Under the pieces are notes generated by a model. It was not told the origin of the DNA, ran no database searches, and worked only from the letters and a program-made list of their open reading frames with translations. From Clostridiales bacterium (GTDB lineage: Bacteria; Bacillota; Clostridia; Lachnospirales; Lachnospiraceae), in assembly GCA_021203365.1 (NCBI GenBank), contig JAJQBI010000079.1, forward strand, positions 1-64,000: a DNA stretch of 64,000 nucleotides. Direction: 5' to 3'. The translations under genes and the position numbers were made by a program. Position 1 is the first letter of the stretch. Every line of letters begins with the position of its first letter. Positions 43,803-59,018 of this stretch are shown here, piece after piece.

Positions 43803-43902
43803 GCTTCAAAACGCCCGCAAATATTCAATTGAAGGTGGAAAAGCACCGAAGGCCCGTCCCTCACATAGACTGTAAGGAAACCCTCTTTTCTGAGGTGCGT
43901 CC

Positions 43903-44292
43903 TTGAAAACTTTTGAGAAACCGCTGTCTCCCACGGAGGAGCGGATGTATCTGGAGCGCTGCAAAAAGGGTGACTCCGAGGCCAGGGATATTCTGATTGA
44001 AAGAAATCTTCGGCTGGTCGCCCATGTGGCAAAAAAATATCACAATGCGGATGAAGATCCGGATGACCTGATCTCCGTCGGCACGATAGGCCTGATTAAG
44101 GCCGTTTCCACCTTTGACTCCTCCAGGGCATCCAGACTCTCCACCTACGCGGCCCGCTGTATAGATAAACCTATCCGCTCACCAACGCGTTTTCAGGTGA
44201 GAAAGAAGCAGTCAGAGAAGACAGAGGGCAGATTTTTGCTCTGTTTTCAGATGATGTTGGGGTCAAAAGTATTTGACCCCTATGATACCTGA
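43903..44292 (+). CDS. sigK: Sporulation sigma factor SigK, 5' part (interrupted)
   Basis: TTG start with GAGGTG 5 bases upstream; a TGA at 43891 blocks a longer reading. Codons 1-88 encode EKPLSPTEERMYLERCKKGD, NLRLVAHVAKKYHNADED and DPDDLISVGTIGLIKAVSTF, regions 1.2 to 2.2 of SigK/SigE-type factors, up to YAARCID. From 44169 on, the sequence belongs to the inserted element and the frame ends at 44292 with an unrelated 40-residue tail. There is no room for the membrane-binding pro-sequence that B. subtilis SigK has, similar to C. difficile SigK. The other half is at 58646..59018. Confidence 0.95.
   Translation: MKTFEKPLSPTEERMYLERCKKGDSEARDILIERNLRLVAHVAKKYHNADEDPDDLISVGTIGLIKAVSTFDSSRASRLSTYAARCIDKPIRSPTRFQVRKKQSEKTEGRFLLCFQMMLGSKVFDPYDT
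44142..44193 (+). other. attL of sigK element (crossover AA at 44167-44168)
   Basis: sigK sequence TGTATAGAT, then AA, then element arm ACCTATCCGC to AACGCGTTTT. The element arm is the mirror of the arm at attR: CTATC and AACGCGTTTT match GATAG and AAAACGCG there. The AA is the exact centre of the reconstructed 52-bp attP dyad. Confidence 0.8.
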
Positions 44293-44458
44293 GAATTCCT
44301 CCGTGCTTCGCACTCCCGGAATTCTCAAAAACATTCGGAATCCGCTCATTTTGGCTAATATATTAGCCAAAATGGCTACTTCCTCATGTTTTGGGCGGGT
44401 CAAGATGTCATGAATTGGAACATAAATGTTCCATTCATGACCTTTTGACCCTGGTATC
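44259..44458 (-). repeat. Interspersed palindromic repeat, copy A (~200 bp)
   Basis: Four consecutive hairpins fill the gap between the sigK fragment and the next gene: GGGGTCAAA/TTTGACCCC; GAGAATTCC/GGAATTCTC enclosing CGTGCTTCGCAC; a 26-bp perfect palindrome centred in GGCTAATATATTAGCC; and a long arm pair around TGTCATGAATTGGAACA. Read on the minus strand it shares GATACCAGGG, CAAAAGGTCATGAAT, GAAGTAGCCATTTT, AAAATGAGCGGATT and CGAATGTT with the copy at 61930..62160. No coding potential. A structured mobile repeat or RNA element is likely. Confidence 0.75.
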
Positions 44459-44612
44459 TTCAGATAATAATTCCCTGATGTGCAGGACAAAACTTTATAG
44501 TACACAAGGCCTGGAAAATCTGCTACAATATAACCTGAAGAAATTTCCACCTTTTGCGGGTGGAAATAGACAAATGTAAAAGCATACGGACGAACAAGAA
44601 GGAGGTGGCCGT

Positions 44613-46328
44613 GTGAATACAAAGATGCTTCCGATAGGAGTCGATGACTTTCGAAAAATCCGGACGGAAGGTTATTATTACGTAGATAAAACCAGTTTTA
44701 TCAGGGATTTGCTGCAAAACCGGGGAGAAGTAAACCTGTTCACACGTCCGCGACGCTTTGGCAAAAGCCTGAATATGAGTATGTTAAAACATTTTTTTGA
44801 AATAGGCACAGACAAAAAACTGTTTGAAGGTCTGGCCATTTCTAAAGAAACGGAGCTGTATGAAACATATATGGGGCAGTTCCCTGTGATTTTCATCAGT
44901 TTAAAAACTGCCCACGGAAACAGTTATGAGTTCGCCAAGAATGAGCTCTGTACTATTATTGCAAATGAAGCGTTAAGATTTCGTTTTCTTCTTGACAGTG
45001 ATAAGCTTTATGAGGAAGAAAAAAGCCTGTATCGTCAGCTTATTCATGTTGATACGTCTTTAAAAAGTGCTTTCGCCATGTCTGAAGCTACTATCACCAG
45101 CAGCCTGAAAACGTTGTCCCGTCTTCTGGAAAAGCACTATGGGCGAAAGGTTATCATTCTGATTGATGAATACGATGTTCCTCTGGCGAAAGCGAATTCA
45201 GCCGGATACTATGATGAAATGATTGTCCTGATCCGAAACATGCTGGACGCCGCGTTAAAAACAAACGAAAGTCTCTATTTTGCAGTGATGACGGGATGCC
45301 TGAGAGTTTCAAAGGAAAGTATTTTTACCGGCCTGAATAATCTGAAAATATATTCACTTTTAGACGCAGAATGTGATGAACGTTTTGGATTTACCGATGC
45401 CGAGGTTCGACAGATTTTGGACTTTTATGGGCTTTCCGAATACTATAATACTACGAAAGAATGGTATGATGGATACAGGATTTCCAATGCATATGTCTAT
45501 AATCCCTGGGATGTCATCAATTGGTGCAGCCAATTACTGAGTAATCCAGACAAAAAGCCAAAAAGCTATTGGAAAAACTCCAGCAGTAATGAAGAAGTCA
45601 AAAAATTCATCCGCCGGATGGGAAACGGTGTGACGAAAGCTCAGATTGAACGGTTGATTTCCGGAGAGACTGTCCAGAAGACAATCGAAGAACAGCTGAC
45701 CTACAATACCATGTACGACAGCGTAGAGAATATGTGGAGCCTGCTCTTTGCAACCGGCTACCTGACTCCTGCTGAGATACCGGATGGAAATCTGGTTCGC
45801 CTGAAAATCCCGAATAACGAAGTCCGTGATATTTTCAGCGGCTTTATCCTGGAACTGTTTGAGGAAAAAGTGGCGGAGGATGGAACTCTGGTGACAGAAT
45901 TCTGTACTGCATTGAAAAACGGCGATACGGCTGATGTTGAGTGCGTGTTCATGAAAGCTATGGGAAAAACCATCAGCATCCGCGATACGGCTGTAAGAAA
46001 AGAATTCAAAGAAAATTTCTACCATGGCCTGATCCTCGGAATCCTGCTCTTTAAAAGCGATTGGGGCGTTACCTCAAACCGGGAATCCGGAAATGGCTAT
46101 TACGATCTTCAGATAGAGATTGAAGAGGAAGAAATCGGCATTATCATCGAGATAAAATATGCAGAGGGCGGAGATCTTGATGCGGCATGTACAGAGGCCC
46201 TGGATCAGATCAATAAAAATAACTATACCGCCGAATTGAAAGAAGATGATATGCACATTATTCTCAAATATGGCATCGCCTGCTTCAAAAAGCAGTGCAA
46301 GGCAGTTTTAGAACGGGAATCCTTTTAA
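44613..46328 (+). CDS. AAA-ATPase-like / PD-(D/E)XK nuclease-fold protein (DUF1703 type), copy 1
   Basis: 571 residues, GTG start with AGGAGG 7 bases upstream. N-terminal PF09820-type ATPase: IGVDDFRKIRTEGYYYVDKT, NLFTRPRRFGKSLNMSML (Walker A-like RRFGKS), VIILIDEYDVPLAKA (Walker B). The C-terminal ~100 residues form a PD-(D/E)XK_9 nuclease fold, with GNGYYDLQIEIEEEEIGI and IIEIKYAEGG giving the D...ExK catalytic residues. The family is very abundant in gut Firmicutes and Bacteroidetes, often many copies per genome, function unproven. A close paralogue lies at 52679..54379 in the same element. Confidence 0.9.
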   Translation: MNTKMLPIGVDDFRKIRTEGYYYVDKTSFIRDLLQNRGEVNLFTRPRRFGKSLNMSMLKHFFEIGTDKKLFEGLAISKETELYETYMGQFPVIFISLKTAHGNSYEFAKNELCTIIANEALRFRFLLDSDKLYEEEKSLYRQLIHVDTSLKSAFAMSEATITSSLKTLSRLLEKHYGRKVIILIDEYDVPLAKANSAGYYDEMIVLIRNMLDAALKTNESLYFAVMTGCLRVSKESIFTGLNNLKIYSLLDAECDERFGFTDAEVRQILDFYGLSEYYNTTKEWYDGYRISNAYVYNPWDVINWCSQLLSNPDKKPKSYWKNSSSNEEVKKFIRRMGNGVTKAQIERLISGETVQKTIEEQLTYNTMYDSVENMWSLLFATGYLTPAEIPDGNLVRLKIPNNEVRDIFSGFILELFEEKVAEDGTLVTEFCTALKNGDTADVECVFMKAMGKTISIRDTAVRKEFKENFYHGLILGILLFKSDWGVTSNRESGNGYYDLQIEIEEEEIGIIIEIKYAEGGDLDAACTEALDQINKNNYTAELKEDDMHIILKYGIACFKKQCKAVLERESF

Positions 46329-46381
46329 TTCCCTTTAAATATAGTGCAGACAATAGAAATGTCCTTCGCTCCGCTGACACT

Positions 46382-46420
46382 GGCGAACAGGTTGTTTTAA
46401 TCGGCTTGTTCGCCTGTTTT
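46382..46420 (+). terminator. Terminator after first DUF1703-type gene
   Basis: GGCGAACA and TGTTCGCC form an 8-bp stem, followed by TGTTTTTCTATT. Lies 54 bases after the stop codon and overlaps the 3' end of the converging small gene. Confidence 0.7.
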
Positions 46421-46612
46421 TCTATTCGAGACAGTTTCAATAACCGCGTCGAGCAGATACTCTTTCTGAGCGGAAGGACAATTCAGCTTCTTTATGTGCA
46501 GGCTGACAGTTTCTGCATGGATACCGGCAACACGCTTTGCCAGTTCTTTTTTCCCCGCTTCTGTTCCTGGATAATGAACAATCACATGGATTTCAGCTCT
46601 TTTTCTTGCCAT
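46397..46612 (-). CDS. Small conserved protein, function unknown
   Basis: 71 residues from ATG 46612, with AGGGGGTG upstream. MARKRAEIHVIVHYPGTEAG, KKELAKRVAGIHAETV and KKLNCPSAQKEYLLDAV. I recall similar short proteins near conjugative or recombinase-bearing elements in Firmicutes, but cannot name a family. The even charge pattern and good ribosome site support a real gene. It converges with the DUF1703-type gene. Confidence 0.5.
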   Translation of the reverse strand: MARKRAEIHVIVHYPGTEAGKKELAKRVAGIHAETVSLHIKKLNCPSAQKEYLLDAVIETVSNRKTGEQAD

Positions 46613-46752
46613 AACAGGCACCCCCTGGTATTTCAGTTTATGTAAGAAAAGTTGTCCGCTATTCCCTCGGAACATGGTGGGGTTTGTGTTTCAGATCTGC
46701 ACTTAGTGCTGATTGACTGAGGTGACGAATCAGGGACACTTTTAAAAAAAGT

Positions 46753-46790
46753 AAAAAAGAACCTCCCCGGAAAGACTCCGAAAAGGTTCC
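46753..46790 (-). terminator. Terminator after fucokinase fusion gene
   Basis: Minus strand GAACCT and AGGTTC close a stem with inner pairing CGGAGTCTTTCCG, followed by TTTTTTAC. Placed 33 bases after the stop of the fucokinase gene. Confidence 0.8.
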
Positions 46791-46822
46791 TGAAATACAG
46801 TTTCCCATAAAGGATTCTACAT

Positions 46823-49765
46823 TTACACAAATTTACAATCCCATACATCAACGCCGCTGTCCTGAAAAACTTCATTCAGACGTTTGCGCAAATCATCCTT
46901 TGAGACTCCTTTTTTAAGGATTACCTGCAGGAATCCGCCGCCGCCGGCTCCGCAGATCATTTTTCCATCTATCAGATCATCCATCACGGAAAAGATCTGA
47001 TCAATACAGGTGTTTGTGCTGCCCGCATCAATATGCTGGCTTTCAACCCAGTGTTCCGTTAAAAGGTCCGCAAAGCCATCCACATTTCCTTTTTCAAGCT
47101 CAAACCGCATTAACACTGCAAGCTGCTGGATCTTATAATGAGCCATTATGGAAGTTTTATCGTTGCATATATATTTGCCAACTACATCACGGAGGAGATT
47201 CCTTGCCAGACGTCTCTGTCCGGTATAGATGAGTGCAAATCTGTCGTTTAGTTCCGCAATGGTTTCTTCACTGACTGCAAGCGGAGTGCAGACGATTTTC
47301 TGCGCAAGCCCCGGTCTTGCTGTAACCATTTTCAGTCCAGGCACTATACCTCCAACCTGATCCTGCCATCCTCCGCCTGTGGACATAAGCTGTTCCATAC
47401 AAAGAACCCGCTCAAACACTTCATCATCGGAAGGCTCCTGTCCCATAGCTTTCAGCAGAGCTTTCACACAGGCCCCTGCCAGAATAGAGCTTGTGCCAAG
47501 ACCGCTTCCTTTAGGGATATCAATCACCCGGGTGTTCATATACATACCACAGCCAAGACGTAAACATATATCCGAAAGAGAAATCATAACTCCATTTTCA
47601 GCGGAATCCTTCGCCGGTATTACTCCGCAGGCAATCAGGGCCGCCTTGTGCAAAGCAAAGGGATCGGATGGGCTGCGGCAGTCCTGAAGCTGGGACAAAA
47701 CGTCAAATTCCTTATAACTGCCTATATCTGTGCTTGCCAGAGCAATGACAGGTTTATCCAGACGTTTCACCGTAACCTCTATCGGAAGCCGCCCGTGGAT
47801 AGAAATTGCAGCATTGAGCACCGTCCCGCCATTTTCCATGCAATATGGAGGTGTATCACTCCATCCCCCGCCCCAGTTCACCCGAACCGGCAGATTTACA
47901 ATCACATCCTGTTTCAGCTGATATTCGGTAAAATGAACACTTTCCATTGCGGCGGAAAGAGTCGCATCACAGATCGCAGAAAAGCACTTATCAATGTACT
48001 GCTCTTCATCTGTAATTTTCCATAAATAGCTGTAAATACGGATCAGCCGGCTGAATTCCTCCAGATTTTCAATGTTTTGTTTCCTGGCTTTATTCAACAG
48101 ATACTCCACCGTATGGTGGTCGATTTCAGGATAGGCCTTTTTCACTTCCTCTGCCGGAATACCGTTTTCAATTTTCTCAAGTATGGCCTCAGCCACTACC
48201 TGCTCATATAAATTTTCCTGCCATGGAAGAATTGCAGTTACATCCGCCTGGTTAAAACTATCTTTAAGACTTATGAGTTCTGTGCTGGCATCTTTTGATT
48301 TTTCACCGGTAAATTTTTCCAGGGTCGCTTTTACTGCATCCTCGATTGTAAAGCATACAGGGTACAGATCTGCAGTCCAGAGCGTTTCACTGATTTCTTT
48401 TCCAAATAATCTGCTTTCTTTGGGATTGTCATCCACACCGTACATCCGGCAGACAAACCGTCCGCCCTTTAATTTTAAGCCATGCAGAACAACTCCATCG
48501 GGTACCGTTTCTCCGGTCAGGGTTACACCGGAAATTATACACTTCTTCCCAATCCTGCTGTAACGGTGAATACGGCTGTCTTCAATGTAACTGCCGGCTC
48601 CCACGGCTGCTCTTCGGCTGACATAGCTGTTGCTGACCGCAAAGCTCTGTGGAGCCAGATTGCTGTTCACTGTCCCTGACCAGTCCAGGAATCGGTATTC
48701 ATCCATCCCGTCTGTCATTAAATGAAGCAGCTCTTTAGTCGTACCAAAATGGATAAATGATGCCGGAGAGAGACGGATCAGTTTCATCGTATAAGGAGAA
48801 AGGACTCTCCATAATTCTGACCTGCAGTCATGAAGTTCCCCGGTAAAGGTTCCCTCAGGCTTTTCTTTATAGAATTGCTCCAGTGTGGATGCAGAGGCCA
48901 GCGGATATAAAAAGTCAGCATAAAAAGACAGACAGGCGTCTGCATTGACAAATCTGTGATAGTTTTCCTCCGTCTCTACTAAGGAATACAGATCTGAAAG
49001 AAGATCTGGCCGCAGGATCACAGCTCCTGTATCAATATCTACCTTCCCCCGATTATCGACTGCACCACAGGCGGAAAGCGTTTCAACCGTCTGTTTATGA
49101 AGAAAGTGACCGACATTCCCATCCTCATCCCGCAGATATACGCCATGATTTTTTCCGGTTTCCACCTTTTCCTTTATAGACAGCGCCGCCGCGCCTGCAC
49201 CATAGAAATCAATCTGCAGGGCATTGAACAACAGCAGCACATCCCCTGAGCATACCAGCATACCGTCACTGATCCGGCTGGTAACCGTACTCATTCCGAT
49301 CAGGAACTCATCAAACAGTGTTGAACGACGCCCATCCGGCAATAGCCGCGGCACGGGGGAGAACAGTTTGCCACAGGCAGAATACTGGGGAACCCGTTTG
49401 CTGTCTCCTCCGGAATGGATAACAAGAATTCGTTTTCCATCAAAAGGATTTTTCCCATCTCTGCATGCCAGATGCTTCTTCTCTTCCTCTGCTGCAAACC
49501 GGATCGCAGAGAAGGTTGCTCCGCCGCTGCCCACACGCTGACCGTCCAGATCCGGGAGAATTGCATAGTGGGTTCTGTCAGGGATCTGTTTGTTTTTAAG
49601 GCGATGGAAAATCTGTGTTTCGTAGGACTTCGCCTGTTCCATATTGCTGGCTGTTAAAATAACATAATCCCAGACAGGAAGCTTTTCATTATGCAGCGTT
49701 TCAATAAAATAATCAAGAGCATCCCGATAGGACTGCTGTTCAAAAAGTGTTGTGTACTGGTTCAT
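46823..49765 (-). CDS. fkp: Bifunctional fucokinase / fucose-1-phosphate guanylyltransferase-like enzyme
   Basis: 980 residues. Residues ~60-480 match the PF07959 pyrophosphorylase: LPDLDGQRVGSGGATFSAI and HSGGDSKRVPQYSACGKLF, then left-handed beta-helix turns (GAGSYIEDSRIHRYSRIG). The last ~360 residues are a GHMP kinase: VNWGGGWSDTPPYCMENGG, PKGSGLGTSSILAGACVKAL (ATP loop), GGGWQDQVGGIVPG and ICGAGGGGFLQ. This is the order of Bacteroides Fkp, which makes GDP-L-fucose from free fucose for glycoprotein and capsule. Related enzymes act on other sugars (e.g. heptoses), so the substrate is not certain. Terminator downstream; a partial repeat copy is just upstream. Confidence 0.85.
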   Translation of the reverse strand: MNQYTTLFEQQSYRDALDYFIETLHNEKLPVWDYVILTASNMEQAKSYETQIFHRLKNKQIPDRTHYAILPDLDGQRVGSGGATFSAIRFAAEEEKKHLACRDGKNPFDGKRILVIHSGGDSKRVPQYSACGKLFSPVPRLLPDGRRSTLFDEFLIGMSTVTSRISDGMLVCSGDVLLLFNALQIDFYGAGAAALSIKEKVETGKNHGVYLRDEDGNVGHFLHKQTVETLSACGAVDNRGKVDIDTGAVILRPDLLSDLYSLVETEENYHRFVNADACLSFYADFLYPLASASTLEQFYKEKPEGTFTGELHDCRSELWRVLSPYTMKLIRLSPASFIHFGTTKELLHLMTDGMDEYRFLDWSGTVNSNLAPQSFAVSNSYVSRRAAVGAGSYIEDSRIHRYSRIGKKCIISGVTLTGETVPDGVVLHGLKLKGGRFVCRMYGVDDNPKESRLFGKEISETLWTADLYPVCFTIEDAVKATLEKFTGEKSKDASTELISLKDSFNQADVTAILPWQENLYEQVVAEAILEKIENGIPAEEVKKAYPEIDHHTVEYLLNKARKQNIENLEEFSRLIRIYSYLWKITDEEQYIDKCFSAICDATLSAAMESVHFTEYQLKQDVIVNLPVRVNWGGGWSDTPPYCMENGGTVLNAAISIHGRLPIEVTVKRLDKPVIALASTDIGSYKEFDVLSQLQDCRSPSDPFALHKAALIACGVIPAKDSAENGVMISLSDICLRLGCGMYMNTRVIDIPKGSGLGTSSILAGACVKALLKAMGQEPSDDEVFERVLCMEQLMSTGGGWQDQVGGIVPGLKMVTARPGLAQKIVCTPLAVSEETIAELNDRFALIYTGQRRLARNLLRDVVGKYICNDKTSIMAHYKIQQLAVLMRFELEKGNVDGFADLLTEHWVESQHIDAGSTNTCIDQIFSVMDDLIDGKMICGAGGGGFLQVILKKGVSKDDLRKRLNEVFQDSGVDVWDCKFV

Positions 49766-49776
49766 GGTTTATGCAC

Positions 49777-49857
49777 CTTCCTCATGTTTTGGGCAGACCA
49801 GATGTCATAAATTGGAAAATAAATGTTCCATTCATGACCTTCTGGCCCTGATATCTT
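49777..49857 (-). repeat. Interspersed palindromic repeat, partial copy B
   Basis: Minus strand: GGCCAGAAGGTCATGAATGG, a short spacer, then CCAATTTATGACATCTGG and GCCCAAAACATGAGGAAGG. It equals the first hairpin of copy A (44383..44458) with a few changes that keep pairing in part. The GAGGAAGG at its end serves as ribosome site of the fucokinase gene, so the repeat forms the leader of that gene. Confidence 0.65.
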
Positions 49858-49940
49858 CGCATTGTAATCACACAGTAAACAATTGTAAGCTTCCCTTAAC
49901 TTTGAGTGCTAGAATCATATTAACCACTTTTAGCACAATA

Positions 49941-50822
49941 TTATCTTTTTTCAGTTTTATTGTTTCGCCACATTCTGCGGTATTCCCTGGGGGAAACTCC
50001 CTCTACCTTTTTGAAAATCCGGGCAAAATAATTCTGATCATCAATTCCGCAGTCAAAAGCAATCCCTTCAATTGATTTATCGGTAAACCGCAGCTGTTCT
50101 TTTGCCTTCGTTATGCGCACAGAATTAATATACACAGTCACCGTTACGCCAAACTGTTCTTTAAAGCATCTGGCAAGGTAGGATTTATGAATGTAAAACA
50201 TCTCAGACAACCCCTCCAGAGTCAGCTTTTCCCTGTAATGCCCGTCTATATAATCTTTGATTTCCAGTACATTTCGCTTTTGGGTTGGAGAAGGCAGCGG
50301 ATCCGGGTGCCAGGATTCGTCCATAATAAGCGTTATGAGAGAGGACAGTTTATCGTAAATGTGAATATCCCTAGTGTATTTATCAGAAGAGGCCAAGTGC
50401 ATAATCTCATTGAGCTGACACTCGTATGCGGTTATATCGTCAGGGTGAAAGACATCATACCCTCCGCGTTCTTTGTACTTATTGTATATTCCGTGAAGGT
50501 TAGAGCCAGAAAAATGGCACCATTTTAAGGACCAGAGACTTTCACTGCTTCCCTGGCTGTAAGGCTTGCGGCAGTCAATAAAAACGCAGTCCCCCTTATT
50601 CAGATCATACGAAGAACCTTCATATGTTAAATGACCAGAACCGTCTGTTACCAGAAAAAATAAATAGGATGCCAGATTGGTTCTTGAACTCATATGGGGA
50701 GATACCGCTTTCAGAGTACCGATTTCCTGAAGATATAAAAGATTTGTTCTTGCAAATTCCGATGGAGTATAAATAATCCGATTCGAGGAGACCAGTTCAT
50801 TTGTAAAAAAATTCGTACTCAA
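49941..50822 (-). CDS. AraC-family transcriptional regulator
   Basis: 293 residues. N-terminal cupin-like sensor (VTDGSGHLTYEGSSYDLNKG, FIDCRKPYSQGSS) and C-terminal double HTH: YIHKSYLARCFKEQFGVTV and FDCGIDDQNYFARIFKKVEG with SPREYRR. AraC regulators with this cupin usually sense sugars. It is upstream of, and in the same direction as, the fucokinase gene, so control of that gene is likely (inference). Confidence 0.9.
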   Translation of the reverse strand: MSTNFFTNELVSSNRIIYTPSEFARTNLLYLQEIGTLKAVSPHMSSRTNLASYLFFLVTDGSGHLTYEGSSYDLNKGDCVFIDCRKPYSQGSSESLWSLKWCHFSGSNLHGIYNKYKERGGYDVFHPDDITAYECQLNEIMHLASSDKYTRDIHIYDKLSSLITLIMDESWHPDPLPSPTQKRNVLEIKDYIDGHYREKLTLEGLSEMFYIHKSYLARCFKEQFGVTVTVYINSVRITKAKEQLRFTDKSIEGIAFDCGIDDQNYFARIFKKVEGVSPREYRRMWRNNKTEKR

Positions 50823-50893
50823 TTTTAAGCCTCAGTTCCTTTTTTCAATCCCAAGCTGATATATTCTGTGGATTAGCACATTATTGATTTTCC

Positions 50894-51273
50894 TCATTTG
50901 CCAATGGTTCCGCGGCTTTGGCCTCTGTGTTTAATCCTGTAGCAGATCCAGTAAATCAGACCGTAGTCAGCTCTCCATTTTTCCAGAGCCACCAGTTGCC
51001 CAACACATCGGATAAAGGATTCATCCACATATCTCTGTTAAGCAGGGTCCGGAAAAGAATCAATGTTGTATAGAACACAAGCAGAAATAAACGCCGGAAA
51101 CAGGACGATGTTTTAAAATTCTGTATCCATCTTCTCACTGAATCCTTCCAGTCATGTTCTTTTGCATACATCCAGAAGAACATGAAAAAAACTGATAAGA
51201 TGACTGCAAACCAGAATGGCTGGTAAAGTGCTGTGAGCACATTGGTAATAATATTTGAAATTATTTTAAGCAT
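50894..51273 (-). pseudogene. VanZ-like protein remnant with internal deletion
   Basis: The 105-codon frame matches the first ~105 residues of the VanZ protein at 21042..21632 (ALYQPFWFAVILSVFFMFFW; TLLNRDMWMNPLSDVLGNWW) and stops at 50956. In another frame directly after it, YGLIYWICYRIKH corresponds to the last residues of that protein (GGLIYWCGHKMKH). So some 65 codons are deleted with a frame change. Probably not functional. The copy shows that the element once held a capsule-type gene set. Confidence 0.75.
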
Positions 51274-51380
51274 TCACAGCACCACCTTTTCCAATTCTAT
51301 AAAACCAGATAAACACTTTTGGCAACGATTCGGCATTTTACATTCGGTCTCATGTATATTCTGATATTCATTTTTTATTT

Positions 51381-52313
51381 TCAAAGGTCACTGTACAAGT
51401 CCTCTGCATATTCGCCATTCTCAATTAACCTGCGAATACTGTCAACCACGGCCGGCTTATCTGCCTGGTAGGTTACTCCAAACCATTTATCATTTGTTTC
51501 CAGGACTTTTACCGTAACTTTTCCTTCCCGCAGCAGACCTCCTATGTGTGTAGGAAGAAGGTACTCTGCTTTTAGCGGGTTTGACGGAACGTCGTTCTGG
51601 AAGAAACCGATGAAGTCCTTTTCCAGTACATCCATGTACCAGGGAGTTTTCCCTTCCCTGGCCGGAAATCCCCAGAAGTTCATGGACACATAGCTTTCCG
51701 GATCAAGAGGAGATCCGTTTGCCTCGGCACCATTCTCCGTCTTTACAATATTACTGGTTTCTGCCACATCAATAACGTGGCTGTGTCCTTCGGCAACCTT
51801 GCACACACCCCTGGTAACGCCGCCATGTTCAGATAGTGTATTTTTCAAAATAAATCCGGCCATGGCGATCGCATTATCTGCGTGTGACAGTACAAGCCAG
51901 TCATGCATTTCCTTAAATCCGGCCTTCCCATAATAGTCATCCGCGTTGATTACAGCAAAGGGCTCATGGATAAGCGGCTTTGCTGCCAGGACAGCATGGC
52001 CGGTTCCCCATGGCTTTGTTCTGTCAGCCGGAAGCGGCGCAGGTATGTTTTCAAGTATCTGAAAAGTGTACTCCACCTCCACATCCAGTTTTTTGCATAC
52101 CTCCTCAACCCGGTCTCCAATGCGTTCCTTAAAGTCCTTTTCGATATCAGGCCGGATCACGAATATTATTTTATTAAAGCCGGCCTTAATCGCATCATGG
52201 ATTGAAAAGTCCATGATAATCTCGTTGTGCAGGCCTACGGGTTCCAGCTGCTTAATCCCGGCACCAAAACGAGAGCCAATGCCGGCAGCCATAATAAGTA
52301 ATGTTGTTTTCAT
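51381..52313 (-). CDS. Sugar-1-phosphate nucleotidyltransferase-like protein
   Basis: 310 residues, ATG after AAGAGGAG. TTLLIMAAGIGSRFGAGIKQ is the GxGxRF nucleotide-binding loop; KPWGTGHAVLAAKP and AVINADDYYGKAG carry the substrate and metal residues. The Rossmann part is followed by a short C-terminal region. Family PF00483; activates a sugar phosphate, identity unknown. With the fucokinase fusion it makes a second sugar-nucleotide gene in the element. Not closely similar to 19404..20138. Confidence 0.8.
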   Translation of the reverse strand: MKTTLLIMAAGIGSRFGAGIKQLEPVGLHNEIIMDFSIHDAIKAGFNKIIFVIRPDIEKDFKERIGDRVEEVCKKLDVEVEYTFQILENIPAPLPADRTKPWGTGHAVLAAKPLIHEPFAVINADDYYGKAGFKEMHDWLVLSHADNAIAMAGFILKNTLSEHGGVTRGVCKVAEGHSHVIDVAETSNIVKTENGAEANGSPLDPESYVSMNFWGFPAREGKTPWYMDVLEKDFIGFFQNDVPSNPLKAEYLLPTHIGGLLREGKVTVKVLETNDKWFGVTYQADKPAVVDSIRRLIENGEYAEDLYSDL

Positions 52314-52678
52314 CCGTATCTCCTCTTAGCTATCCCTTTATGGTTTCAATGTTTCCTGAGACTCTGTTATATCTCCATTTTGCCATGAAAATGCTTTTCA
52401 ATCAACCGTTATTTTGTTAATATCCAGTATAAAATATAAAAATGTATACCTTTTCGTTCATTTTAAGCGGTAACCTTTACCAATTTATCGATTTTACAAA
52501 AACAAAGGATTCCTGCCGAACGCAAACAAAAGATATATCCACGGAAATGTAATAAATAGGAGAAAGACCGGTTAAAATGTAAAAGCGAATGCGGAATGAA
52601 ACACACTTTCTGCCAATAGGAAGGATATTGTAAATCGAAATCCGTCTTTTTATTCTGTTTTTTGTCTTGCATTTCAGT
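52314..52678. other. AT-rich intergenic region, no feature recognised
   Basis: 365 bases between two leftward genes. A 69-codon minus-strand frame (52463..52672) has no ribosome site and an unconvincing composition. No clear promoter with consensus boxes, terminator or repeat was found. Confidence 0.5.
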
Positions 52679-54379
52679 TCATTCCGGATCGTTTACTTCA
52701 AGCTCCACAACAACCTTACACTGACTTTTATAGCAGGCAACACCATACTTCAATAGAGTTCGCATACCATCATCTTTAAGCTCTGCAGTATAATCATTGT
52801 CGTTGATTTGCTTTAACGCTCTTTCGCATTCCTGTTCAAACTGTGCATTTTCTGCATACTTTACTTCAATGACAATACCAATCTCTTCATCCTCAATCTC
52901 GATTGCAATGTCATAATATCCATCACCGGATTCTCTGTTCGAGTCAACGCTCCAGCCATCCTTAAAACCAAGGATGCCAAGAAGAAGCCCGTGGTAGAAG
53001 CTTTCTTTGAACTCTTTCCTGACGGCCGTATCTCTGACGCTGATCGTGTTCTTCATCAGGGCTGCGAATAGTCTTTCGACTTCAGCCGCGTTTCCGTTCT
53101 TTAGAGATTCACAAAATGCGGATACTGTCGTACCATCCTTTGCGATTTTCTTTTCAAACAGCTTTAACACATAATCTCTGAAGATGCTGCGGACTTCTGT
53201 GTTCGGTACAGTAAGGCGCACCAGATTTCCCGATGGCATTTCACTCTGTGTCAGATATCCCGCAGCATACAGCAGGCTCCACAAATTTTCCACGCTGTCG
53301 TACATTGTATCGTAAGTGAGCTGTTCTTCTATCTTTTTCTGTACGGTTTCTCCCGATATCAGCCTCTCTATCTGGGTCTTTGTTACCCCATTGCCCATCT
53401 TCTGTATAAATCTCTTTACTTCCTCATTACCGCTTGAATTTGTCCAGTAGCTCCTGGGCACTTTGTTTGAGTTCGTCAACAGCTGATCACACCAGTTAAT
53501 CACATCCCAGGGATTATACACGTTGGCACGCCCGATTCTATATCCGTCATACCACTCTTTTGTTATATCGTAATATTCGCGCAGATCATAATAGGCAAGC
53601 ATTTCCCGAACTTCATCATCCGTAAATCCAAACTGCTCATCACACCTCGCATCAAGTAGTGTGTACATTTTCGGATTATTAAGTCCCGTGAAAATACTCT
53701 CTTTAGATACCCGCAGACAACCCGTCAAAACCGCAAATTCCAGGTTTGGGTTGGTTTTAAGCGCCTGATGAAACATACCGCGAATAAGCTTAATCATTTC
53801 ATCATAATAACCACATTCATTTGCCTTCGCCAATGGAACATCGTACTCATCAATCAGCACGATTGCTTTTTTGCCATAATGTTTTTCAAGCAGTTCTGTA
53901 AAATTTCTCAGGCTTGAAACCAACACCCCATCTTCCATTCCCCTGTCCATCAGCCGGGACAAAAGCTCTTTTTCGTTTGGAATCAGGTTCGTACTTTCCA
54001 AAAGGAAGCTGAACCTTCTTGCTTCCTCGTTTATAACATCAACCGCCATACTGCGCGCTGCGCTATAGTTTGCACCCTCAATCCCCTTTAAACTGATTGA
54101 AACTACGGGATACTGTCCCATATATTTTTCACAAAGTTCAGTTTCCTTTGAAATTGCCAGCCCATCAAACAGACTTTTTTCTGTACCGATCTCAAAGAAA
54201 TATTTGAGCATACTCATGTTTATGCTTTTTCCAAACCGGCGCGGTCTTGTGAAAAGATTCACCTTACCCCAATCGCTCAGGAGTTCTTTTATCATGCCGG
54301 TCTTATCGACATAATAAAAACCTTGTGTAATAATTTCCGCAAAGTCCTCTATGCCAATCGGCATTTTCTTCTTTCCCAT
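52679..54379 (-). CDS. AAA-ATPase-like / PD-(D/E)XK nuclease-fold protein (DUF1703 type), copy 2
   Basis: 566 residues from ATG 54379 (GAGGAAG 8 bases upstream; the GTG at 54388 is too near the site). Same layout as copy 1: IGIEDFAEIITQGFYYVDKT, NLFTRPRRFGKSINMSML, AIVLIDEYDVPLAKA, and nuclease part GDGYYDIAIEIEDEEIGI with VIEVKYAEN. The two proteins appear to share well over half their residues along the whole length. Opposite orientation to copy 1, so homologous recombination between them would invert the DNA between. Confidence 0.9.
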   Translation of the reverse strand: MGKKKMPIGIEDFAEIITQGFYYVDKTGMIKELLSDWGKVNLFTRPRRFGKSINMSMLKYFFEIGTEKSLFDGLAISKETELCEKYMGQYPVVSISLKGIEGANYSAARSMAVDVINEEARRFSFLLESTNLIPNEKELLSRLMDRGMEDGVLVSSLRNFTELLEKHYGKKAIVLIDEYDVPLAKANECGYYDEMIKLIRGMFHQALKTNPNLEFAVLTGCLRVSKESIFTGLNNPKMYTLLDARCDEQFGFTDDEVREMLAYYDLREYYDITKEWYDGYRIGRANVYNPWDVINWCDQLLTNSNKVPRSYWTNSSGNEEVKRFIQKMGNGVTKTQIERLISGETVQKKIEEQLTYDTMYDSVENLWSLLYAAGYLTQSEMPSGNLVRLTVPNTEVRSIFRDYVLKLFEKKIAKDGTTVSAFCESLKNGNAAEVERLFAALMKNTISVRDTAVRKEFKESFYHGLLLGILGFKDGWSVDSNRESGDGYYDIAIEIEDEEIGIVIEVKYAENAQFEQECERALKQINDNDYTAELKDDGMRTLLKYGVACYKSQCKVVVELEVNDPE

Positions 54380-54648
54380 ATCGCTCACTTCCTCTCAGAC
54401 TGCAAAGCACAATAAAACCGTCGTGTCTATAGCTTACCACAGAGCCAACTCTCAAATCAAGGTCTGTTTCAAGAATGCTTTATTAACAATCAGCATCTTT
54501 TCCTCAATTGCAGACAGGTTCAACAGCATCCGGTTCCTCATTGCCAATTACTGACAGGAGTTTATCTGTTGGTGTTTGAGGTTCTATATTCCGAGCCGGA
54601 TCACTGTTCCAGACAATGTAAATTCTTTTTTAACTCACACTTTTGCCT

Positions 54649-54677
54649 TTGACCATCTAAAAAAATTCGGATATAAT
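54649..54677 (+). promoter_or_regulatory. Strong sigma-A promoter
   Basis: TTGACC, 17-base spacer, TATAAT. It leads into the short TIGR04076-like frame and the MBL-fold gene. About 75 bases of untranslated leader with GC-rich pairs (AAGGTCCGCC, GCTCCGCGATAT) follow; no known riboswitch recognised. Confidence 0.8.
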
Positions 54678-54754
54678 TTTTTATCAGGGGGAAGGTCCGC
54701 CTGAAGCTCCGCGATATGGTGCAGGCTGCGAATTAAATGAGGAGGTTAACCCAG

Positions 54755-54880
54755 ATGAAGAAATATAAAATCACTGTGCTGAAAAGGGAATTCTATTCGA
54801 ATTTAGCCAAAGAATATATACCTTTTCCTGATGGGAACCTTTGCGAAAGGAAAAAGAAGGGAGCAAACAATGAACTATAA
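54755..54880 (+). pseudogene. TIGR04076-like protein, truncated after ~25 residues
   Basis: ATG preceded by GAGGAGG. The 41-codon frame begins MKKYKITVLKREFYSNLAKE, a close fit to the start of TIGR04076 proteins (MKKVKITVLKxxFxxxLAxEY), which are normally near 90-110 residues with Cys pairs. After PFPDG the family similarity ends and the frame overlaps the next gene by 11 bases. It now looks like a leader peptide coupled to the MBL gene; origin by deletion is likely. Confidence 0.55.
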
Positions 54881-55559
54881 AATTAACAGAATAGATAAGC
54901 AAACATGGTCTGTTGAAGATGAAGGCGTGCGCTTCTTCCTTTTAACCGGCACGGAAAAGGGATTGGTCATTGACAGCGGCATGACAGCCAAAAATGCCAG
55001 AGAGATTGCCGAGGCCCTCACCAATCTTCCTTTGCAACTATTAAATACACATGCTGATATGGATCACATTGCCGGAAATGACGCCTTTGATACGGTGCTT
55101 ATGAATCCCGCTGAGTACATCAACTATTTTCATTCGAGTGCTTCCCATACGACGCCGACCCCGGTGTGGGATGGAGATATTATTGACCTGGGAGACCGGC
55201 CATTGCGGGTAATCACACAGCCTGGTCATACTCCCGGAAGCATTGCTCTTCTGGATATAAACCGGCGTATACTATTCAGTGCAGACTCTGTCCAGAACGG
55301 GGAAATCTTTCTGTTTGGCCCCATGCGAAATCTTATCGGCTATCGGCAAAGTCTGGATAAAGTGTGGGCGCACCGGTCAGAGTATGACCTGATTTTTCCA
55401 TCCCACGCAGAACTGCCGTTGAAACCGGAAATCATTCCTGAACTCATGGCTGGCATGGACCAAATTCTGGCCGGAAAAGCGCCCTGCCAATCCGGCGAGA
55501 AGTTCGGTGTGCCAATTAAAATCTACGACATGGGAACAGCCGTGTTCCTGTGCGATTAA
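54870..55559 (+). CDS. Metallo-beta-lactamase-fold hydrolase
   Basis: 229 residues from ATG 54870 (GAAGGGAG upstream; earlier starts fall within the truncated frame). LLNTHADMDHIAGN is the HxHxDH zinc motif; TQPGHTPGSIALLD, ILFSADSVQNG and IFPSHAELPL supply the remaining His/Asp ligands. This is the broad MBL superfamily of thioesterases, lactonases and glyoxalase II-like enzymes; nothing points to a beta-lactamase. Transcribed from the promoter at 54649. Confidence 0.85.
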   Translation: MNYKINRIDKQTWSVEDEGVRFFLLTGTEKGLVIDSGMTAKNAREIAEALTNLPLQLLNTHADMDHIAGNDAFDTVLMNPAEYINYFHSSASHTTPTPVWDGDIIDLGDRPLRVITQPGHTPGSIALLDINRRILFSADSVQNGEIFLFGPMRNLIGYRQSLDKVWAHRSEYDLIFPSHAELPLKPEIIPELMAGMDQILAGKAPCQSGEKFGVPIKIYDMGTAVFLCD

Positions 55560-55583
55560 GCAGAATATTATCATCTTACTCCG

Positions 55584-55612
55584 TTGCTTTCCGCCGGAAA
55601 ATGCCATATAAT
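55584..55612 (+). promoter_or_regulatory. Promoter of P1 peptidase gene
   Basis: TTGCTT, 17-base spacer, TATAAT, 40 bases before the ATG, which has GGGAGGG as ribosome site. It lies 25 bases after the MBL gene, so the peptidase is transcribed separately at least in part. Confidence 0.7.
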
Positions 55613-55651
55613 GGGGCTATATCCAACTGGAAAAAATCGGGAGGGATTCTC

Positions 55652-56626
55652 ATGAAAGAACTCAGCATTTTAGACATTTGCGGCGTCCGGGTAGGCCATG
55701 CCCAGGATGAACAGGCAGCCACCGGCTGCACCGTCCTTCTGTTTCCCGGCCTCTGCCCCACAGGGTGTGACATCCGAGGCGGAGGCCCCGCCTCCCGGGA
55801 GACGCCGCTGACCGATCCACGCATGGCGTCACAGGGGCTGAATGGCGTCCTTCTGTCCGGCGGCAGTGCCTTCGGTCTGGATGCGGCTGGAGGCGTACTG
55901 CGCTACCTGGAGGAACGAGGTATCGGCTTTGACGTGGGAGTGACAAAGGTTCCCCTTCTCTGTGAAAGCTGTGTCTTTGACCTGGCGGTAGGGAATGCCC
56001 ACGTCCGCCCGACACAGGAAATGGCCTATGCCGCCTGCCTGGACGCAGAGCGGGGTGTCTTACGGGAAGGCAATGTAGGCGTCGGCACAGGCTGTACCGT
56101 TGGCAAGCTGTTGGGGGCGTCGTATGCCATGAAAAGCGGTGTGGGAAGCTACGCCGTTCAGGCAGGCAACATTCAGGTAGGAGCTGTGGTGGCCGTCAAC
56201 GCCCTGGGAGACGTGTACGACATCGACACCGGCGTTCCACTGGCAGGGCTGTTGGAAGAAGACAGGAACAGCCTCCGCTCCTCTGAACTGACCTGCTACG
56301 CTGCCATCGACCACCCCGTGGAGAATGCCTTCGTAGGCAACACCACCATTGGCTGTGTAGTTACCAACGGCAAATTCTCAAAGGCAGAGATGAATAAGCT
56401 GGCGGCCATGGCCTCCAACGGTTACGTCCGCACGATCCGTCCGGTGAATACCACCGCCGACGGAGACAGCCTTTACGCCGCCTCCGTTGGGCAGGAACCG
56501 GCTGCCCTGGACGTGGTCGGCACTCTGGCAGCCTATGTGACGGGAAAAGCAGTAAACCGGGCGGTGCTGGCTGCGCAGGGGGCTTACGGCCTGAAGGCGG
56601 CCTGTGACCTGGCCGACCGTCAGTAA
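55652..56626 (+). CDS. P1 family (DmpA/S58-type) peptidase
   Basis: 324 residues from ATG 55652. Conserved parts: CGVRVGHAQDEQAATGCTV, GVLLSGGSAFGLDAAGGV, GNVGVGTGCTVGKLLG and VGNTTIGCVVTNGKFSKAE. Members of this Ntn-hydrolase-like family cleave themselves to expose an N-terminal Ser or Thr and act as aminopeptidases on D- or beta-amino acids or as amidases; the Thr in NTTIG is a candidate nucleophile but I am not certain. GC is higher than in neighbouring cargo, suggesting a separate origin. Substrate unknown. Confidence 0.85.
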   Translation: MKELSILDICGVRVGHAQDEQAATGCTVLLFPGLCPTGCDIRGGGPASRETPLTDPRMASQGLNGVLLSGGSAFGLDAAGGVLRYLEERGIGFDVGVTKVPLLCESCVFDLAVGNAHVRPTQEMAYAACLDAERGVLREGNVGVGTGCTVGKLLGASYAMKSGVGSYAVQAGNIQVGAVVAVNALGDVYDIDTGVPLAGLLEEDRNSLRSSELTCYAAIDHPVENAFVGNTTIGCVVTNGKFSKAEMNKLAAMASNGYVRTIRPVNTTADGDSLYAASVGQEPAALDVVGTLAAYVTGKAVNRAVLAAQGAYGLKAACDLADRQ

Positions 56627-56649
56627 ACAGCGTAAAAAGACATAAAAGC

Positions 56650-56709
56650 AGCCCGGCAGGTCACTGTACGCTGTGGGATTTACACAGTGTAAAAACAAAC
56701 TGCCGGGCT
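56650..56709 (+). terminator. Large hairpin after P1 peptidase gene
   Basis: AGCCCGGCAG and CTGCCGGGCT form a 10-bp stem, with a second stem inside (CACTGT/ACAGTG). Located 24 bases after the stop. The T-run is weak (GGCATTTATGTTTATT), so efficiency is uncertain. Confidence 0.5.
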
Positions 56710-56911
56710 GGCATTTATGTTTATTCGGTTTTGTCAGGTACTCTTCCCTGTTCTCTCCCTTGCTCAATTCCTTGCTCAAAGATCCCCTGGCTCAAATTAC
56801 ACATTAAATTCAACTCCTTTCTGAAATTTTCTTTTAGAACTTTCCGCTGACATAATTCTATGTTATCGACCTGGTGCATATATCATAGAGATATCGCAAG
56901 GAGCGTCCAAA

Positions 56912-58648
56912 ATGCAATTGAATGAGGACTGCATTGCCATCTATTCCCGCAAATCCAGATTTACGGAAAAAGGCGAGAGCATCGGCAATCAGGCAGAGCT
57001 TTGCAGGGAATATATTCAGGTACACTACGGGACAGAAGCTCTGGAACACGTAGTGGTTTATGAAGATGAAGGATTTTCAGGCGGAAACCTGAATCGTCCG
57101 GATTACAGGAAAATGATGGCGGCGGCGAAAAAGCGTAAGTTCAAAGCAATCGTTGTCTATCGTCTTGACCGAATCAGCCGTAACATCGGTGACTTTGCCG
57201 GATTGATTGAGGAGCTGGCACGTCTGGATATTGCGTTTATCTCCATTAAAGAGCAGTTTGACACCAGTACACCTATGGGACGGGCCATGATGTATATTGC
57301 TTCCGTTTTTTCACAGCTGGAGCGGGAGACAATTGCAGAGCGGATTCGGGATAATATGCACGAGCTTGCGAAGACAGGCCGCTGGCTGGGCGGAACAACA
57401 CCGACCGGTTATTCCTCAGAATCTGTAAAGAGTATTAATATTGATGGAAAGACAAAAAAGGCCTGCAGGCTGAAACTGATTCCGGAGGAAGCAAAGGTGG
57501 TCAGACTGATCTTTGATAAATATGTGGAGACGGATTCACTGACACTCACGGAAACGGAGCTGCTGAATCAGGGATACAAAACAAAAAATAATAAAACCTT
57601 TACCCGTTTTTCCATTAAGTCGATTTTGCAGAATCCTGTCTATGCAATCGCAGATCAGGAGATGTATGATTACTTTGTGAATGCGAAGTCGGAGCTGTTT
57701 TCCGGAAAAGAAAACTTTGATGGTGTTCACGGGATCATGGCTTATAACCGTACCGATCAGGAAAAGGGAAAAACTACAATTTTGCGTCCGTTAAATGAAT
57801 GGATCATATCAGTTGGCCTGCATCCCGGCATCATCCCCGGAAAGGTATGGGTACGGGTACAGGAGTCGCTTAAGAGAAACAAATCGAAATCCTACCGCAA
57901 GCCACGCAGCAATGAGGCTTTGCTGACCGGATTACTGTACTGCGGCTGCGGCAGCCGCATGTATCCCAAGCTTGACCGGCGCAGAAGCCTGGACGGAAAG
58001 CCGGTTTACACCTACACCTGCAAAATGAAAGAACGAAGCGGCAGCAGCATTTGTAATCAGAGGAATGCGAATGGAAATGCACTGGATGCTGCAGTCACCG
58101 CGCAGATCAGGCTGCTGGAGGACGACCAGGGAATCTTTCTGAAACAGCTTGAGCAGAGCCGCAGCTCCTACATGGGTAACCGCACAGATTATGAGGAACG
58201 ACTTGCAACCCTGCAGCAGAACAGAAACACCTCTGAAGGGAAGATGGAAACACTCATGGATTCGCTGGCGGAAGTGAGCGATGCAACGGCCAGAAGCGCT
58301 GTGGTGAAGCGGATTGAGCAGCTGAGCCGCGAATGTAAGGAGCTGGATTCCCGCATTCATGAGCTGAAAGCTCTGACCGCCGGACATGCACTCAGTGATA
58401 TTGAGTTTGATGTATTGCGTCAGCTCTTATCTTCTTTTAAATCGGGCATTGATGAAATGCCGGTGGAACAGAAACGGGCGGCAATCCGTGCTCTTGTGCG
58501 GCGCGTGATCTGGGATGGCACAGACGCCCATATGATTTTATTCGGCGCTTCTGAGGAGGAGATTGGGTATCCGGAAATCAAGGGTCTGGATCAGGCAGCG
58601 TCAGCCAGTCTGTCTCCAAAAACGCGTCGGGGTGACGATAGCAAATGA
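56912..58648 (+). CDS. Large serine recombinase, SpoIVCA-like sigK-element excisionase
   Basis: 578 residues, ATG with AAGGAG 8 bases upstream. N-terminal resolvase domain: CIAIYSRKSRFTEKGESIG (catalytic Ser15), VVYRLDRISRNIGDF, and FSQLERETIAERIRDNM. A recombinase domain follows (GGTTPTGYSSESV), then a zinc ribbon (GLLYCGCGSRM; YTYTCKMKERSG) and a coiled coil (~400-480). The stop codon TGA (58646) is in attR, directly after the crossover AA, so excision replaces the end of the gene. No good sigma-A promoter is visible; CATATATC at ~56876 resembles a SigE -10, which would fit mother-cell expression (weak). Confidence 0.92.
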   Translation: MQLNEDCIAIYSRKSRFTEKGESIGNQAELCREYIQVHYGTEALEHVVVYEDEGFSGGNLNRPDYRKMMAAAKKRKFKAIVVYRLDRISRNIGDFAGLIEELARLDIAFISIKEQFDTSTPMGRAMMYIASVFSQLERETIAERIRDNMHELAKTGRWLGGTTPTGYSSESVKSINIDGKTKKACRLKLIPEEAKVVRLIFDKYVETDSLTLTETELLNQGYKTKNNKTFTRFSIKSILQNPVYAIADQEMYDYFVNAKSELFSGKENFDGVHGIMAYNRTDQEKGKTTILRPLNEWIISVGLHPGIIPGKVWVRVQESLKRNKSKSYRKPRSNEALLTGLLYCGCGSRMYPKLDRRRSLDGKPVYTYTCKMKERSGSSICNQRNANGNALDAAVTAQIRLLEDDQGIFLKQLEQSRSSYMGNRTDYEERLATLQQNRNTSEGKMETLMDSLAEVSDATARSAVVKRIEQLSRECKELDSRIHELKALTAGHALSDIEFDVLRQLLSSFKSGIDEMPVEQKRAAIRALVRRVIWDGTDAHMILFGASEEEIGYPEIKGLDQAASASLSPKTRRGDDSK

Positions 58649-58670
58649 GCTTCTTATGATGTTTCGCGCC
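58619..58670 (+). other. attR of sigK element (crossover AA at 58644-58645)
   Basis: Element arm AAAACGCGTCGGGG through GATAGCA, then AA, then sigK TGAGCTTCTTATG. In attP (58619..58645 joined to 44169..44193) the arms are 25 + 2 + 25 bases and 18 of 25 positions pair as an inverted repeat. Confidence 0.8.
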
Positions 58671-59018
58671 CGGAAAAAATACGCAAGAGAGGTCTCTCTC
58701 TATGAGCCCATCGGCACAGACCGGGATGGAAATGAAATCAGTCTTCTGGAAGTAATTGAAAGTCCCCCGGTGGACATTGTGGAGGATTGCTGTACCAGGG
58801 AAAATATCTCCCGGCTGCTTTCCCGGATGACGGAAGTCCTCACCTCCAGGGAATACCAGGTTCTCTGCAGTCGCTACGGTCTTTTCGGAGAGAGAGAGCA
58901 GACCCAGCGGGAAATCTCCCGCCGTCTCTCCATCAGCCGCTCTTATGTCTCCCGCATCGAAAAAACCGCGCTTGCCAAGCTGCGGACGCTTTTCCCGGAA
59001 GCCAATCTGCGGTCATGA
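58646..59018 (+). CDS. sigK: Sporulation sigma factor SigK, 3' part (interrupted)
   Basis: No start of its own. From the crossover it reads N-ELLMMFRARKKYAREVSLYE, then PIGTDRDGNEISLLEVIE, the highly conserved SigK/SigE segment after region 2.4, and ends with region 4: LTSREYQVLCSRYGLFG and QREISRRLSISRSYVSRIEK, the -35 recognition helix. Joined to 43903..44168 it completes a 212-residue factor; stop at 59016..59018. As it stands in this orientation the gene is inactive, and late mother-cell transcription requires excision of the element. Confidence 0.95.

Follow-up and report, generated by a model that had tools for sequence, protein, structure and literature searches.

What interrupts the gene sigK in a Clostridiales bacterium of the family Lachnospiraceae, and is the interruption removed again when the cell sporulates? 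The question is raised by a stretch of 64,000 nucleotides (contig JAJQBI010000079.1 of assembly GCA_021203365.1, positions 1 to 64,000; in the following, the window), in which sigK lies in two halves on the plus strand, the N-terminal one at 43903-44168 and the C-terminal one at 58646-59018, separated by an insert of 14,477 bp (44169-58645). The left open reading frame (ORF) spans 43903-44292, and its residues 3-101 align to positions 25-123 of the SigK model (136 bits); the right one aligns to positions 108-224 (132 bits), and for each half the SigK model outscores that of SigE. Fusing base 44168 to base 58646 gives an open SigK frame of 212 amino acids (aa) running through ...RCIDNELLMMF...; sigK is broken inside its coding frame and precise removal of the insert restores that frame, as is expected of a skin-type element. 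A preliminary description had proposed two sigK fragments on one strand, a frame-restoring 44168/58646 junction, a large serine recombinase at the right end and a cargo unlike the phage content of the Bacillus element. Coordinates and model matches agree with the first, the uninterrupted 212-aa SigK was obtained for the second, the recombinase is a 578-aa protein with three recombinase domains, and Pfam and PHROG scans of the cargo returned no phage structural family. The anatomy of the split sigK element is settled. Its content of guanine plus cytosine (1-kb windows) is 0.40-0.48 across most of the element, against 0.54-0.56 in the flanks, and reaches 0.53-0.55 in the stretch of the metallo-beta-lactamase and S58 genes and in the window with the integrase 3' end.

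The ends can also be found independently of the reading frame: a repeat finder returned an inverted pair at 44171-44193 and 58619-58641, which pairs at 18 of 23 positions, a value reached by one in 2,000,000 random 23-mer pairs of the window. When the element is circularised, the arms flank CAAAAC, and the centre of symmetry is therefore the AA at which sigK rejoins. The same circularisation in 15 two-ended elements (that of the window, that of locus L039 and those of 13 of the 80 integrase loci described below) gives 13-21 pairs of 26 in each, with 6.5 expected at one-in-four pairing. A symmetric attP around a central dinucleotide, as found here, is general in phage-encoded serine recombinases (PMC5595907), and the dyad at the circle joint, centred on the crossover AA, is what would be expected of the attP of a serine integrase. 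In viral contigs, a degenerate 24-mer of attP had no match; a 16-mer of the window's own attP hit 26 contigs, which look like chance, because none of the 26 stretches matches the integrase, SigK or the small protein discussed below. That the split is an artefact or chimaera of assembly is hardly credible: the assembly is a draft (84 contigs, 83.7% complete, about 16% of the genome missing), but the contig measures 139 kb, the junction is exact, the attP dyad matches it and independent assemblies contain the same arrangement.

The integrase is a site-specific large serine recombinase at the element end, whose stop codon is formed by the sigK side of attR (58630-58648). Among the best 80 of 409 relatives from a scan of genome contigs (59-91% identity), 70 have the C half of SigK directly 3' of the integrase, starting at the same residue and on the same strand; in three the C half lies 1.4-4.5 kb off and in three only the N half is present, which makes 76 of the best 80 loci with a SigK half. 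Two of the remaining four extend less than 250 bases 3' of the integrase, and two (L074, L122) extend 10 kb with no SigK half in it. The nine loci with the own genome's other recombinase matches (L030-L038, some being two pieces of one gene) contain no SigK half. At a threshold of E 1e-150, 11 of 299 genomes sampled from the family and 12 of 391 sampled from the class carry the integrase, both counts including the own genome; with the latter left out, a SigK half is found near the integrase in 7 of 10 family loci and in all 11 class loci, and in L169, L172 and L174 none was found within the 1.25-1.5 kb examined. The SigK half of L195 is 1.1 kb from the integrase, and L196 has an N half on the other strand. 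The 76 loci with a SigK half among the best 80 bear record names of Lachnospiraceae, Oscillospiraceae, Christensenellaceae, Holdemania, Gemmiger and Faecalibacterium. Judged from these sequences and their neighbourhoods, the integrase is a member of a sigK-dedicated clade. Phage records gave 587 integrase matches, all below 60% identity, and SigK halves occur in 3 of 41 IMG/VR loci (L125, L126, L127), small-protein matches in two (L127, L128).

Several observations on the integrase and its relatives may be added. In 9 of the 15 two-ended elements the integrase stop codon is built from sigK bases across attR (besides the window in L039, L054, L055, L067, L091, L092, L110 and L112); the integrase reading frame runs on in the circular form and acquires a C-terminal tail, of 35 aa here, which in L055 and L110 holds a helix-turn-helix regulator. 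The IMG/VR contigs L127 (38.8 kb) and L128 (75.3 kb) are phage-sized, with integrases 44-47% related and weak matches to the small-protein family, and in L127 a SigK N half adjoins the integrase on the opposite strand. In the five Gemmiger and Faecalibacterium loci (L065, L082, L097, L107, L116), the sigK integrase is accompanied by a C half of SigK.

The element also carries a candidate for a recombination directionality factor (RDF). The gene inventory of the preliminary description holds for the features that it listed, but overlooked a 71-aa ORF at 46397-46612. Besides the integrase, the four smallest elements (3.56-4.86 kb) have in common one ORF of 68-74 aa, on the opposite strand near attL; an AAA-type ATPase is shared by three of them, L084 being without it. 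This small-protein family is present in all 15 two-ended elements, in each on the strand opposite to sigK, and in 28 of the 80 integrase loci; none of the other 52 is two-ended, and 33 of them extend less than 10 kb upstream of the integrase. With a profile of 30 members, the small protein was found in 4 of 60 genomes sampled from the genus, namely in all three with a split sigK and in one of the 57 others (G007; Fisher p 1.2e-4). For the small protein, Pfam gave nothing above cut-off (best E 0.11), PHROG and PADLOC gave no match, phage records gave a single weak one (37%, E 0.04, an Oscillospirales phage), and a profile search of solved structures gave nothing below E 0.05. In its predicted structure, an extended N-terminus leads into a hairpin of two helices (mean pLDDT 85.5, pTM 0.57). 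The distribution of the family, with the motifs before its gene described below, makes the 71-aa protein the likely candidate for the RDF of the element. In G007, where sigK is intact, the small protein (L226, contig C152) lies beside a helix-turn-helix gene like that of L055 and a MobC-like ORF, both labels being read from translations, and no integrase match was found in the 2.4 kb of contig examined; this locus is possibly a mobilisable relative.

Promoter-like motifs precede the small-protein gene. With consensus motif definitions, the sigma-E-like pattern ATA-N14-18-CATA was found there in 16 of 30 members (shuffles: mean 0.35, maximum 3) and the SpoIIID-like RRACARNY likewise in 16 of 30 (shuffles: mean 3.3, maximum 9), in sequences that are related and thus not independent. 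As a positive control, the own genome's spoIIID has a promoter of the same kind (TGTATAAAATAAAAATACGCCACATACATT). The strict form is present twice more in the 64-kb window, at places that overlap each other, and the region upstream of the integrase, like those of spoIVA and sigK, has no match to the pattern. A sigma-A-like promoter is visible by eye before the integrases of L050, L054 and L055. The conserved block before sigK itself (Table 1) we assign, by a consensus, to a mother-cell sigma factor as its putative target.

Much of this arrangement resembles skinCd of Clostridioides difficile: sigK is split, the integrase CD1231 directly precedes the 3' part of sigK, SigK has no pro-sequence, and the RDF CD1234, of 72 aa against 71 here, is under sigma-E and SpoIIID, whose motifs the small gene here also carries (PMC5025042); the two small genes are likened by description. 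The differences are that the small protein here has no Pfam match at cut-off or PHROG match and that the cargo contains no phage structural family. In Bacillus subtilis, sigK is likewise split by an element that encodes a serine recombinase (skinBs, with SpoIVCA), yet this element is prophage-like, its site and orientation differ from those of skinCd, sigma-E and SpoIIID control its recombinase, and the SigK of B. subtilis is made with a pro-sequence (PMC5025042). Prophage-like gene content, by which skinBs and skinCd may be narrowly defined, was not found in the eight cargo proteins scanned here. A further similar system is gin in gerE of Bacillus cereus, a non-phage intervening element with a serine recombinase and an RDF (GirC/GirX), for which a crossover at an AA in the middle of an inverted repeat is predicted, as here (PMC5595907). 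That element sits in another gene of another host, and the likeness is one of description. The staphylococcal cassette chromosome (SCC, with CcrA/B/C) shares the serine recombinase, the swappable non-phage cargo and the single site; the best NCBIfam matches of the window integrase, CcrB (150 bits) and CcrC (135 bits), and likewise CcrA (59 bits), are far under their cut-offs of 900, 900 and 700. SCC is not known to split a developmental gene. Ccr proteins are further described as excising without an RDF (PMC5595907). No paper describing this sigK integrase family was found in the open-licence literature (titles and openings of abstracts). The window element appears to be a non-phage variant of skin, and its family to be wider than described in the literature found.

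We consider it highly probable that we are dealing with a skin-type element, integrated by its integrase and excised in the mother cell with the help of the 71-aa RDF. The integrase would read a codon stretch of sigK as attB, and integration would split the gene; if C. difficile is a guide, the integrase is probably produced in every cell and on its own would only integrate. In the mother cell, sigma-E and SpoIIID would switch on the RDF, attL and attR would recombine at the central AA, the 14,477-bp circle would leave and sigK would be rejoined; the forespore would keep the element, which is why it could be inherited. The split, its exact junction, the symmetry of attP, the sigK-dedicated integrase family, the linkage of the small protein to the elements, the promoter-like motifs and horizontal movement are observed; excision, its timing and cell type, the role of the RDF and constitutive expression of the integrase are what we infer here. 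The preliminary description had held that late sporulation depends on excision in this organism, a view which the conserved RDF candidate with its promoter-like motifs, the conserved sigK halves and the conserved sigK promoter block strengthen.

The state of the sigK halves bears on this. Among 75 C halves from split loci, 71 run for 114-131 aa to the stop codon and 4 are short (99-105 aa), compared with 118-133 aa in 20 intact genes. For pairs of at least 75% protein identity, the median ratio of nonsynonymous to synonymous divergence (dN/dS) of the C half is 0.066 in split loci (maximum 0.238; 13 disjoint pairs) and 0.080 in nine pairs of intact sigK. A first calculation over all pairs (medians of 0.48 for 347 split pairs, with dN near 0.7, and 0.10 for 24 intact ones) was dropped because it was saturated. 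The full-length C halves and low dN/dS, together with the conserved sigK promoter block and the conserved sigma-E- and SpoIIID-like motifs before the RDF candidate, speak against an integrative element that merely uses sigK as attB and is not excised in development, late sporulation being lost or reduced until the element happens to be lost. This alternative, which we hold to be unlikely, draws on the short C halves, on the small share of genus genomes with a split among readable sigK genes, on a frameshift in spoIVA of this assembly, on the relatives in Gemmiger and Faecalibacterium, which are not known to form spores, and on a recent exchange of the integrase (91% identity with L046, against 55% for the sigK C halves). 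A decayed, immobile remnant with sigK as a pseudogene is very improbable; the same frameshift would suit it, as would the SigK of the window being the least similar to the genus among 22 compared, but both sigK halves, the integrase, the att sites and the RDF candidate are intact, and in similarity to outgroups this SigK does not fall outside the spread of the other sequences (rank 20 of 22).

Several points weigh against developmental excision as set out above and should be kept together. The case for excision is built on the anatomy and on the precedent of C. difficile. The RDF candidate is basic (isoelectric point 9.2), while CD1234 is reported as acidic (5.5), so that kinship of the two is unproven; 19 of the 80 integrase loci have 10 kb upstream of the integrase and no small-protein match, none of them being two-ended. 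Apart from the relatedness of the sequences counted, the sigma-E pattern misses the upstream regions of the own spoIVA and sigK, including the sigK promoter block, and a promoter scan gave no sigma-70-type promoter on the integrase strand here. The dN/dS result loses weight, since sigK divergence may predate insertion: of the 13 pairs, 11 allowed the calculation, and in each of these the integrase has a lower dS than sigK. Finally, spoIVA is in two frames, with the frameshift beside a G run (contig C64:59715-61182 of the own genome; L176, L177), which makes sporulation of this strain uncertain; assembly error and real loss are not distinguishable at this place. SpoIIID and Spo0A of the own genome pass their cut-offs. 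The gene yabG, reported as the conserved gene of the sigma-K regulon (PMC10747680), had no match in the own genome or in any of the 60 genus genomes, and its absence is uninformative because it extends to all of the latter.

An intact second sigK elsewhere in the genome was named in the preliminary description as a refutation; none was found with the SigK model in the own assembly (84 contigs, 83.7% complete). The best other match, on contig C45 (247 bits, SigK cut-off 299), is SigE, directly after a SpoIIGA-like gene, so named from its translation. A comparison with unsplit relatives, also called for, shows sigK uninterrupted in 41 of the 60 genus genomes (hand count from the match list, 7 of the 41 rows reporting one stop codon within the matched stretch) and split in three (G030, G059 and the own genome, G000), and 15 genomes have no SigK match of that kind. 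G056 was left out of the split count because its sigK is broken by contig ends, the N half running to residue 101 at the end of one contig and the C half from base 3 of another. Among the 44 genomes with a readable sigK, 3 are split. The gene downstream of sigK, presumably a U32-type peptidase, follows sigK in 17 of the 20 intact loci that were read as well, and 10 of the 20 show the upstream gene (1.5-kb flanks).

The divergence of the parts bears on how such elements move. Between the window integrase and those of L044 and L046-L048 identity amounts to 90-92%, but the sigK C halves of these loci share only 54-56% with that of the window; for L039, the other split genus member read, integrase identity is 54% and that of the C half 65%. 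These identities and the dS values indicate that elements move between hosts, that insertions within the genus were probably separate and that part of the constraint on sigK predates insertion. On this sequence comparison, the integrase moved between hosts more recently than the host sigK genes diverged.

The cargo (Table 1) also differs between elements. No phage structural, packaging or lysis family was found in the eight cargo proteins with Pfam and PHROGs, whose PHROG matches comprise one family of unknown function (part of the fucokinase-like protein), six for the AraC regulator and one hydrolase, and PADLOC found no defence family in the nine proteins given. Two genes suggest sugar-nucleotide metabolism; the fucokinase-like protein scores 464 bits against PRK13412, under its cut-off of 721. 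Among loci L001-L123 (E 1e-20), window cargo recurs elsewhere only as an S58 relative in L053, which sits downstream of sigK and hence outside the element there, and as the 105-aa protein in L082. Ten further two-ended elements supplied a sample of 20 proteins; among those with a Pfam name are shikimate-pathway enzymes (L091), a phosphotransferase system (PTS) permease (L067), an ABC transporter (L039), a giant FctA-type surface protein (L092) and helix-turn-helix regulators (L055, L110); a D5_N match in L110 is the sole hint of phage or plasmid replication. By these annotations, cargo differs from element to element: fucose, shikimate, PTS, ABC transport, adhesin.

Table 1. Features of the split sigK locus (positions in the window)
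Feature	Position	Strand	Basis or remark
sigK promoter block GGAAAAGCAC...CATAGACTGTA	43837..43874	+	common to the 6 intact-sigK genus relatives compared
sigK N-terminal half	43903..44168	+	TTG start, without pro-sequence; in-frame stops close the frame upstream
attL (half sigK, half element)	44145..44195	+	crossover AA 44167-44168
Copy of host-wide repeat of about 120 bp	44340..44463		own-genome search
AAA-ATPase_like + PDDEXK_9 protein, 571 aa	44613..46328	+	Pfam
RDF candidate, 71 aa, family A1	46397..46612	-	ORF open to 46675
Sigma-E-like promoter of RDF candidate	46635..46665	-	SpoIIID-like box GGACAACT in spacer
Fucokinase / fucose-1-phosphate guanylyltransferase-like protein, 980 aa	46823..49765	-	PF07959, 2.7e-86
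AraC-family regulator	49941..50822	-	Pfam
Hypothetical protein, 105 aa	50956..51273	-	no Pfam or PHROG match; 48%-identical stretch in L082
Sugar nucleotidyltransferase-like protein	51381..52313	-	PF00483, 4.2e-6
Second AAA-ATPase_like + PDDEXK_9 protein	52679..54388	-	Pfam
Metallo-beta-lactamase-fold hydrolase	54831..55559	+	Pfam
S58-family peptidase	55550..56626	+	Pfam
sigK-specific large serine integrase, 578 aa	56912..58648	+	Resolvase, Recombinase, Zn_ribbon_recom domains
attR	58619..58670	+	crossover AA 58644-58645
sigK C-terminal half	58646..59018	+	SigK model 132 bits

Newly found, as far as sequences can tell, are a sigK-dedicated integrase family, an RDF candidate, an attP dyad, a varied cargo and horizontal transfer. 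That related modules with other cargo split sigK elsewhere hints at a route of gene exchange linked to the spore. Going further, we lean, with some reserve, towards the view that gut Clostridia possess a scattered, recurrent and horizontally moving family of sporulation-gated cassettes, in which the sigK integrase and the RDF controlled by sigma-E and SpoIIID are constant, the cargo varies and sigK is the docking site. Within the constant module, genes for fucose activation, the shikimate pathway, PTS and ABC transport or a giant adhesin would be carried; sigK would serve again and again as a landing place, comparable to the attB of SCC, with its occupancy policed by development. Since only the mother cell, which is doomed anyway, would lose the cassette, sporulation would be little impaired in the host. 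Carriers are a minority (11/299 in the family, 12/391 in the class, 3/44 in the genus) yet recurrent across distant lineages. Should excision be confirmed, the carrier species would sporulate by way of a programmed removal of DNA, and metabolic genes would be exchanged at sigK as their docking site; serine-integrase tools would gain a ready RDF family in the conserved small protein. The question is directly testable, because there are named strains in which one contig contains both ends, such as Mediterraneibacter agrestimuris DSM 111629 (L054) and Catenibacillus scindens DSM 106146 (L067).

The element also contains sequence shared with its present host: the repeat of about 120 bp has 64 matches in the own genome, with up to 100% identity, 17 of which, the copy at 44340 included, cover at least 119 of 141 query bases. 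A second copy lies inside the element at 49777-49858. The presence of host repeats inside an otherwise foreign element indicates that it has probably been resident for long enough to have been entered by a repeat family of the host.

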